From contig CALMVZ010000024.1 of assembly GCA_937873155.1 (NCBI GenBank), forward strand, positions 62,001 through 126,000: a stretch of 64,000 bases of DNA, written 5' to 3'. The notes beneath the pieces are model-generated. The model did not search any database, was not told the DNA's origin, and saw nothing but the letters and a program-made list of their open reading frames with translations. The DNA comes from an uncultured Bacteroidota bacterium. GTDB lineage: Bacteria; Bacteroidota; Bacteroidia; B-17B0; Aurantibacillaceae. The stretch's first letter is position 1, and each line of letters starts with the position of its first letter. Of the stretch, positions 50,724-52,851 are shown one piece after another. A program made the translations under genes and the position numbers.

Positions 50724-50764
50724 CATTTTTTATTTAATTTTCCAAAGTATGTTTTCTCTAAAAG

Positions 50765-51904
50765 CTACAAAATAAAGTCGGGATAATTAGTTGATGTTAC
50801 TACTTCGAACGCAGCTTTTTTATAAGCTTTTGAAAATGCCGCTGGTTTTTTCGGAAGTTTTTTCGGCGAAAATTTAAATTCGAAGGCGTGGAGTTTTTTG
50901 TCGTATTCTTCCAAAAGATCTATTTCCTGCTGATCGTATGTACGCCAAAAGTAATAACGCGGAAAATAGTTTCTATAAGTGTTGCGTTTTAATCTTTCCA
51001 TAAACAGGTAATTTTCCCACAACATTCCTTTTTCATCATCCCTTCGTAATGAAAGTGGATTAAAATCGCCTGTAATGGCATTACGTATTCCATTGTCAAT
51101 AAAGTACCAACGCTGGCTCTTGCTAATTTCTTTTCTGAGATTATTACTATAAGCACTGACCTTATACAAAACAAATACTTTTGTAAGTAAGTTTAAATAT
51201 TTTTCTACTGTATTTTTACTTATACCTAAGGCATTACCTATTTCGTTATAAGATACTTCTTTCCCTATCTGGTAAGCGATCATTTGCAAAAGGCTGCTCA
51301 CTATACTTGCATTTCTAATGCCATCCAGCATTAAAATATCTTTTAAAAGGTATGAGTTTACCATGCCGATTAAATAATTTCGTTTGTCCTCTAAAGAGGG
51401 TAGGTGCCATAATTCAGGATAGGAACCATAAATAAGCCTTTCTTCAAGATTTTGTTTCGTTTGAAGTGCATTTTCATATTTTCCGATTTCGCCCTGGTAA
51501 AGCGGATATAGTATAAGATTATTGCTTCGGCCTGTAAGAGGTTCTCCAGATACATTTAACATATCAAACGCTGATGAACCTGTTACCAGGATTTTTAATC
51601 CCTTAAAAGAATCAATCATTAGCTTTAATTTACGGCCTATATCAGGTATGTTTTGAGCCTCATCTATAACCAATAAATCATTCCCATTTAGTACTCTTGT
51701 ATAGTTTTTAACGCTTCTTTCAATTAACAGTTGATGCGTTGTTTGGTCTTCTCCGTTCAAAAACAGGTAAGGGCGTTTATAAGCCGAAAGAAAATTTTGA
51801 AGAAGCACCGATTTACCCACACGCCTTGCTCCTAACAAAATAGTTACTTTCTGTGGTTTTAAAGCTTTTGCCAGTGCTTCTTGTTGTAAACGCCTGATGT
51901 CCAT
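50765..51904 (-). CDS. AAA_14/DUF4143 ATPase
   Basis: A 379-residue protein: AAA_14 ATPase domain (about 18-140) with Walker A GARRVGKS (25-32) and Walker B LLVIDEAQNI, sensor ILVTGSSAF (about 110), then a winged-helix region (YNEIGNALGISKNTVEKYL) and a DUF4143 domain (about 230-360) ending with a PD-(D/E)XK-like stretch (QEIDLLEEYDKKLHAFEFKFS). These ATPases are widespread, patchily distributed, and of unknown function; links to DNA, toxin-antitoxin-like or mobile behaviour have been suggested. Three palindromes precede the gene, and it has an isolated promoter between terminators. It has no operon partner. Confidence 0.92.
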   Translation of the reverse strand: MDIRRLQQEALAKALKPQKVTILLGARRVGKSVLLQNFLSAYKRPYLFLNGEDQTTHQLLIERSVKNYTRVLNGNDLLVIDEAQNIPDIGRKLKLMIDSFKGLKILVTGSSAFDMLNVSGEPLTGRSNNLILYPLYQGEIGKYENALQTKQNLEERLIYGSYPELWHLPSLEDKRNYLIGMVNSYLLKDILMLDGIRNASIVSSLLQMIAYQIGKEVSYNEIGNALGISKNTVEKYLNLLTKVFVLYKVSAYSNNLRKEISKSQRWYFIDNGIRNAITGDFNPLSLRRDDEKGMLWENYLFMERLKRNTYRNYFPRYYFWRTYDQQEIDLLEEYDKKLHAFEFKFSPKKLPKKPAAFSKAYKKAAFEVVTSTNYPDFIL

Positions 51905-51908
51905 ATTG

Positions 51909-51942
51909 CAAATATACGAATTCTGTTATTATAATGACAAAA
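51909..51942 (-). promoter_or_regulatory. Complete promoter of the DUF4143 ATPase gene
   Basis: Minus strand reads TTTTG (51942-51938), 21 bases, then TATATTTG (51916-51909), an exact fit to the Bacteroidota -33/-7 pattern. The -7 element ends 4 bases before the ATG at 51904. The first palindrome (51924-51939) fills the spacer and touches the -33 element. Confidence 0.75.
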
Positions 51943-52003
51943 TTTACATTAAAAATGTCATTATAATGACAAAATTTATATAAAAATTGTCATTATAATG
52001 ACA
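51924..52003. promoter_or_regulatory. Three 16-bp palindromes at 32-bp spacing (probable operators)
   Basis: TGTCATTATAATGACA occurs perfectly at 51956-51971 and 51988-52003, and with one change (TGTTATTATAATGACA) at 51924-51939. Start-to-start distance is exactly 32 bp both times, about three helical turns. The 16-bp spacers are also alike (AAATTTAyATwAAAAA). The first copy lies between the -33 and -7 elements of the ATPase gene. Repression by a dimeric regulator, perhaps the ATPase itself (it has a winged-helix region), is inferred. Confidence 0.85.
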
Positions 52004-52027
52004 ATTTTTTCATTTTATTCAAAAAAT

Positions 52028-52062
52028 AAAACCCCTGAAGCACGAAAACATCAGGGGTTTTA
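52028..52062 (-). terminator. Bidirectional terminator after the zinc-ribbon gene
   Basis: AAAACCCCTGA and TCAGGGGTTTT flank a 12-base loop. It ends the Nif3/zinc-ribbon operon and insulates the ATPase promoter. Confidence 0.88.
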
Positions 52063-52077
52063 AAAATTTAAATTTGA

Positions 52078-52851
52078 TTATTGTGCCGCTTGCTGTTCGT
52101 CCGGGATAATTGTTCCGTCAACTAAGATACGTCCGCAATGTTCACAAACGATGATCTTCTTGTTTGTACGGATGTCTAATTGGCGTTGAGGCGGGATCTT
52201 GTTATAGCATCCACCGCAAGCATCACGGTCAACAGTAACAACTGCTAAACCATTACGCGTATTAGAACGGATACGTTTGTATGCATTCAATAAACGGTCT
52301 TCAATTTTTGCAGAAGCTTTTTCTGATTCTTTCAATAATTCAACTTCTTCTTTTTCAGTTTCAGCAATGATCTCATCAAGTTCACCCTTCTTTTGCTTTA
52401 GATCTTTTGTACGCTCTTCAAATTCAGTTTTAGATTTCTCTAAAAGATCTGATTTAAGTGCAACTCCTGCTTTAGCTTCCTTGCTGCGTTTTTCAGCTAA
52501 CTGGATCTCTAAATTCTGGAATTCAATTTCTTTAGTGATAGCATCATACTCACGGTTGTTACGTACTTTACCTTGTTGTGATTCGTATTTTTTAATGTTA
52601 GCCTGAAAATCTTTTATGGCTTGTTTCTTCTCCTCGATCTGATTTTCTAACTCTTGTACTTCAGTAGTAACGTTGTTCAATCGGGTCTCTAAACCGGCAA
52701 CAACGTCTTCAAGGTCGCTAACTTCTAATGGTAACTCACCGCGCACAGTACGAAGCTTGTCTATTTTAGAGTCAATTAATTGTAATTCGTAAAGAGAACG
52801 CAATTTTCCTTCAATGGAAGCGTCGATTTTTTCTTTGATTTTTGCGCACAT
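52078..52851 (-). CDS. Zinc-ribbon coiled-coil protein (DUF164/zf-RING_7 type)
   Basis: A 257-residue protein: a long coiled coil (about 15-190; rich in Glu, Lys and Leu heptads) and a C-terminal zinc ribbon with CGGCYNKIPP and IVCEHCGRIL providing four Cys ligands. These conserved proteins are probably RNA- or ribosome-associated; function in Bacteroidota is unproven. It starts 2 bases after the Nif3 gene, and this pairing is common. It is the last gene of that operon and is followed by a strong terminator. Confidence 0.9.
   Translation of the reverse strand: MCAKIKEKIDASIEGKLRSLYELQLIDSKIDKLRTVRGELPLEVSDLEDVVAGLETRLNNVTTEVQELENQIEEKKQAIKDFQANIKKYESQQGKVRNNREYDAITKEIEFQNLEIQLAEKRSKEAKAGVALKSDLLEKSKTEFEERTKDLKQKKGELDEIIAETEKEEVELLKESEKASAKIEDRLLNAYKRIRSNTRNGLAVVTVDRDACGGCYNKIPPQRQLDIRTNKKIIVCEHCGRILVDGTIIPDEQQAAQ

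Follow-up and report, generated by a model that had tools for sequence, protein, structure and literature searches.

The window analysed here, a 64,000-nt stretch from an uncultured Bacteroidota bacterium to whose positions all coordinates refer, carries on its minus strand a gene for an AAA_14/DUF4143 ATPase, upstream of which lie three 16-bp palindromes (Table 1). Judged by its sequence, the gene is PDC-S01, a single-gene phage-defence candidate: the protein matches the PADLOC PDC-S01 model PDLC04789 over residues 1-378 (E=5.3e-149), AAA_14 (PF13173) and DUF4143 (PF13635) both score well above the Pfam cut-offs, and all 111 aligned family members match PDC-S01. In a 2026 survey PDC-S01 comes fourth in abundance among the defence systems of prokaryotes; it is presented there as a fusion of an ATPase with a PD-(D/E)XK-type domain and as an unvalidated candidate (PMC12988326). 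No study explaining the mechanism of this gene, one of the commonest predicted defence genes of prokaryotes, was found; the accessible portions of published PDC-S01 accounts yielded no mention of a cis array or of DNA specificity, and no functional study of DUF4143 was found in the open-licence literature, which makes for weak evidence of absence. The palindromes probably serve PDC-S01 as an operator for self-regulation, at which the encoded ATPase-nuclease binds and represses the gene's own promoter.

K31, D81 and E82 of the Walker A and B motifs and E327, D329, E342 and K344 of the nuclease-like core are all present in the protein and near-invariant over 120 homologues. The winged-helix-like segment seen in the initial annotation appears in a confident AlphaFold model (mean pLDDT 94) as two helices (219-226 and 230-242) and a wing (246-268); covariation links the recognition helix of this segment to the core of the array, as described below. 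A nuclease-like sheet is seen in the same model.

The palindromes are found where the initial annotation had placed them, at exact 32-bp steps and with 16-bp spacers; the second and third are identical, and the first differs from them by one mismatch. The period-32 score of the array is 41 of 44, above all 60 dinucleotide shuffles (maximum 28). Five sites in the window match the palindrome with at most 3 mismatches, against 0.73 expected, and no shuffle gave five. Chance palindromes are rejected by the shuffles and by the downstream controls of the homologues. Dyad symmetry extends to the spacers, which are AAATTTAnnTAAATTT-like and kept among homologues as (T)AAATT...AATTT(A); the unit is therefore better described by a 16-nt half-site that alternates in orientation (ATAAATTTTGTCATTA in the window, with the pattern AAATTnnGTCA). 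The whole 4.85 Mb genome holds only two other sites with at most 2 mismatches, both single (in the genome control the backward-read pattern gives 8 matches vs 5), and no other copy of the array. A repeat dispersed over unrelated sites, which the initial annotation had named as an argument against itself, is thereby rejected.

Bacteroidota promoters follow a -33/-7 consensus. In the window TTTTG lies 21 nt upstream of the -7 element, and the placing of the first palindrome between these elements agrees with the initial description, TTTTG overlapping the palindrome. Among homologues, TAnnTTTG occurs in the 75 nt next to the ATG in 82/120, against 7/120 on the opposite strand, and the median distance between the end of the gene-proximal half-site and the -7 element is 13 nt.

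The array characterises a whole family and not a single locus. In a set of 229 non-redundant homologues, the 32/33-bp geometry is found upstream of 148 of the 165 members with 35-100% identity; the initial annotation had staked itself on homologues carrying such arrays. At 45% identity or more the best upstream period is 32 in 92/109 and 33 in 9/109, and at 35-45% it is 32 in 33/56 and 33 in 14/56, while the downstream controls are flat, with no 32/33 period. Arrays mostly contain 2-7 half-sites, and other phyla are also represented, one example being the 32-bp array on a Treponema plasmid. Members below 35% identity show other symmetric elements at the same place, 46 of 60 beating all ten shuffles, and symmetry is higher upstream than downstream (p=2e-7). 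Several distant DUF4143 relatives (L106, L168, L177, L184, L190, L192, L195) have one long promoter palindrome of ~36-40 bp in place of the 32-bp array, such as CCATGAAAATTGGAA...TTCCAATTTTCATGG; others have 22-23-bp or 33-bp direct repeats upstream.

A blind search of 395 genomes of the phylum for GTCA-N6-TGAC-N18-GTCA-N6-TGAC returned ten places, and the backward control pattern none. Eight of the ten lie directly upstream of a PDC-S01 gene, and the ninth (L290:1320-1546) is a relic, in which a deletion has left the array and, after it, no more of the gene than its last 56 codons.

The core of the half-site (positions 9-14) varies by clade (GTCA, TTCA, GTGA, GCGA, TGGA, GATA, GGCT and others), and this variation follows the protein. 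When mutual information was computed between core bases, in half-sites called from DNA alone, and 373 protein columns (120 sequences, effective number 43), residues 229-231 and 220 ranked top with bases 9-13. Base 11 and residue 231 reach 0.61, against 0.38 for the best column outside residues 215-240; the other top pairs are base 12 with 229, base 10 with 230, base 13 with 231 and base 9 with 220. At residue 231, Asn goes with T (78/79), Lys or His with G (11/11) and Asp or Glu with C (8/10); at residue 229, Ser goes with C (73/77) and Asp with G (23/24); at residue 230, Lys goes with G (89/91). These preferences are chemically sensible (Lys/His-G, Asp/Glu-C, Asn-T, and Asp229-G, with C on the other strand). 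Across 60 disjoint nearest pairs, the same 229-231 triplet goes with the same core in 36/37 and a differing triplet with a differing core in 22/23 (p=3.6e-14). In a second phylum, Spirochaetota, a code fixed beforehand predicted 8/9 bases in six arrays passing a preset filter. There, 10/13 loci carry the predicted dyad against 5.2 permuted (P=0.0025 with 5-8 nt spacing, somewhat optimistic because this spacing was chosen after odd-spaced dyads had been seen), and the strict N6 dyad test out of sample is weak (P=0.011). Single genomes can also contain many paralogues with differing motifs (G011, G037). Some genomes (G011, G037 and G043) hold ~10-14 PDC-S01-type paralogues each, which is unusual for a single-gene system.

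Since the core covaries with residues of the recognition helix, the PDC-S01 ATPase very probably reads its own array. This part of the cooperative self-repression initially proposed is backed by the covariation; repression by the ATPase is the most likely consequence of the overlap with the promoter, and cooperativity is suggested by the helical phasing. In the mechanism proposed here, the AAA+ ATPase-nuclease would bind 16-nt half-sites through residues S229, K230 and N231 at the N-terminus of the recognition helix, and also through position 220. As the half-sites flip every 16 bp, its subunits would line up on one face of the DNA across two to three palindromes, an arrangement suited by the 32-bp step of about three helical turns. 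The gene-proximal copy would cover the -33/-7 promoter and repress transcription, and cooperative binding may be linked to the ATP state. The resting protein would then be a low-level, DNA-bound repressor, until a phage signal frees both protein and nuclease.

Several points weigh against this mechanism. Approximately one in ten homologues of at least 35% identity is without a clear 32/33-bp best period, the half-site heuristic misplaces the register by one half-period in some AT-rich cores, and the tenth place of the blind search (L293:1501-1546) is bacterial and has no adjacent PDC-S01 gene. Binding may also activate transcription instead of repressing it. Finally, many STAND-type winged helices do not bind DNA; the covariation argues that the winged helix here, unlike many of those, does. 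The L293 array lies downstream of a 299-aa ORF that by eye resembles an Mrr-type restriction protein.

Array and gene together form one inserted unit, in line with the self-contained module of the initial annotation. In 7/7 congeners the two flanking genes, zinc-ribbon upstream and O-methyltransferase downstream, are adjacent, 84-104 bp apart, and this gap holds a terminator-like hairpin and the methyltransferase promoter; the extra ~1.27 kb in the window is the array plus the gene and nothing more. No target duplication is visible in the comparison with the seven empty sites. A gain in the window genome would be the simpler explanation, the alternative being a loss in seven congeners. Flanking genes are shared by some related species among the ten closest loci, but the flanks of the window occur in none of the other nine. 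The upstream neighbour (52078-52851) codes for a zinc-ribbon protein with a coiled coil, a relative of CdsZ/CT398, and occurs in 31/31 genomes searched.

This insertion, together with the relic that retains the array and the last 56 codons, would also fit repeats that serve as mobility ends or insertion scars, moving the gene without any regulatory role. Such a role is very unlikely, since the repeats are one-sided, no transposase accompanies them, no target duplication is visible, and the position of the array relative to the promoter is conserved; transposon ends are on the first three counts unsupported. A host-encoded regulator might bind the array in place of the ATPase, autoregulation being itself a reading of the sequence, but the core tracks the ATPase's own recognition-helix residues, paralogues in one genome differ in motif, and array and gene are jointly missing from the site in congeners. 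A shared host regulator is rejected on the covariation and the paralogue motifs, and any host regulator is slightly less probable even than mobility ends. Palindromes can also fold, as an RNA structure, attenuator or riboswitch-like leader would require; the -7 element, however, stands between array and ATG, which puts the array upstream of the transcription start, and an RNA leader is rejected as the least credible of these explanations.

More weight, though still little, is due to the array as a site for activation or as an architectural, partition-like site, on which an ordered ATPase oligomer would be nucleated in the manner of an origin or centromere. The nearest folds include the Orc1/Cdc6 initiators, AAA+ proteins whose winged helix reads inverted repeats, and arrays reach 6-7 half-sites. 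Against this unlikely alternative, RNA polymerase would be blocked by a protein bound to the gene-proximal half-site, which in the window, as in most homologues, is ~13 nt away from the -7 element; the unit is also chromosomal, where a partition role is not needed.

Arrays also occur without the gene. Viral contigs carry arrays with the right cores, an AATT-N6-AATT spacer (at most 1 base off) and the 32-bp phase but no PDC-S01 gene; all are of the GTCA class and belong to five or six phage lineages. A profile search of the array-bearing viral records, which may be fragments, found no PDC-S01 gene, and a peptide-pattern search found no relatives of the protein in viruses. The phage arrays sit within intergenic gaps or at their edges, some of them upstream of a gene for endolysin or terminase; in lineages A-D the neighbours are phage genes (primase/helicase, portal, endolysin, terminase), and for three lineages the relatives have Bacteroidota as hosts (Nonlabens, Flavobacterium, Maribacter, Cellulophaga). 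No four-half-site score of 24 or more occurs in 0.87 Mb of control viral DNA (lineage E scores lower). The single-core pattern AATTNNGTCAN6TGACNNAATT occurs in 15 viral contigs vs 103 for the backward pattern in raw counts; the deficit may reflect avoidance by phages or a dinucleotide effect. An adjoining half-site matching 7-8 of 8 bases accompanies 5/15 of these hits vs 0/80 backward ones. In viruses, only phased arrays are enriched, and the single-core GTCA pattern is not. GTGA-class dyads in viruses, which have no neighbouring half-sites, are rejected as chance. No array was found in the isolated phage P12024S or in a 12.7-kb part of phage Fpv5. In the Nonlabens phage P12024S, the annotation of one gene (L509:16313-17452) joins an archaeal ATPase domain (PF01637) to an acetyltransferase domain.

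The gene-less arrays may be decoys, borrowed operators or relics of lost genes. They hint at an operator-based interplay between phage and host, and suggest that phages interact with PDC-S01 through DNA alone. A more speculative and rather doubtful extension is that the defence is switched through its own operator: phage arrays would titrate or mis-position the protein and so disarm it (decoy), or, seen from the host, titration by replicating DNA would trigger derepression of the ATPase-nuclease.

Table 1. Features of the PDC-S01 locus in the window, and the phage lineages with gene-less arrays
Feature	Position or record	Strand	Remark
PDC-S01 gene, 379 aa: AAA_14 ATPase, winged helix, DUF4143 with PD-(D/E)XK-type core	50765..51904	-	domain and PADLOC matches, AlphaFold
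PD-(D/E)XK-like nuclease core, E297, E327, D329, E342, K344	50873..51040	-	near-invariant, 120 homologues; strands in model
Winged-helix domain, residues 199-268	51101..51310	-	AlphaFold model, mean pLDDT 94
Recognition helix region, residues 229-242	51179..51220	-	probable specificity residues 229-231 = S-K-N (covariation and model)
Walker A motif GARRVGKS, residues 25-32	51809..51832	-	G25, R27, G30, K31 invariant, 120 homologues
-7 element TATATTTG	51909..51916	-	Bacteroidota TAnnTTTG type; ends 4 nt before ATG (51904)
Palindrome 1 TGTTATTATAATGACA	51924..51939	.	between and overlapping promoter elements
-33 element TTTTG	51938..51942	-	overlaps palindrome 1
AT-rich spacer dyads	51940..51987 (51940-51955, 51972-51987)	.	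second dyad centre of 32-bp unit
Palindrome 2 TGTCATTATAATGACA	51956..51971	.	pattern match
Palindrome 3 TGTCATTATAATGACA	51988..52003	.	outermost copy
Array and gene; all 7 congeners lack them at this site	50748..52015	.	empty-site comparison; ends approximate
Terminator hairpin of upstream zinc-ribbon gene	52027..52062	-	outside inserted unit; hairpin also at empty sites
Phage lineage A	L300, L332, L361		
Phage lineage B	L304, L333		
Phage lineage C	L373, L376		
Phage lineage D	L374, L375, L384		
Phage lineage E	L380		weaker, lower score
Phage lineage F	L385		

The PDC-S01 identity, the conserved nuclease motif, the family-wide geometry and the gene-less phage arrays, as predicted from sequence, go beyond the initial annotation. 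With a conserved cis array and a residue-to-base code, three residues suffice for a guess at the DNA target of many members, and array and code give a direct handle on the binding and resting state of PDC-S01.

The full-length match makes the protein the same as PDC-S01 of PADLOC, where the difference is that the family is here tied to a cis array and a DNA specificity. A structure search gives the archaeal ATPase 2qen, Orc1/Cdc6 and STAND proteins including Avs4 as the nearest solved folds. Among the archaeal Walker-type ATPases, PABY2304 (2qen) is the best whole-chain fold match and 2fna the best profile match; however, identity is 17% and TM about 0.5, and no array is described for them in the search output. 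Archaeal Orc1/Cdc6 on ORB repeats (2qby, E=4e-6) is likewise an AAA+ protein that reads inverted repeats through a winged helix, whereas the window protein is without origin context, adds a nuclease domain and has its array at its own promoter, and the overlap is partial (TM 0.29). The STAND ATPases (Avs4, MalT-like, Apaf-1) also combine an ATPase, a winged helix and an effector within a single chain, and comparison of the NTPase-winged-helix core gives weak hits (6mfv, 8dgf for Avs4, Apaf-1) that are significant but partial (TM 0.26-0.39); by contrast, the window protein has no sensor repeats, and its winged helix probably reads DNA. Phage repressors and restriction C-proteins repress themselves from tandem symmetric operators that lie by their own gene and overlap its promoter, with specificity diverging among relatives. 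The PDC-S01 regulator would differ from these in being also an ATPase-nuclease, and its array in having a rigid 32-bp phase and two types of dyad.
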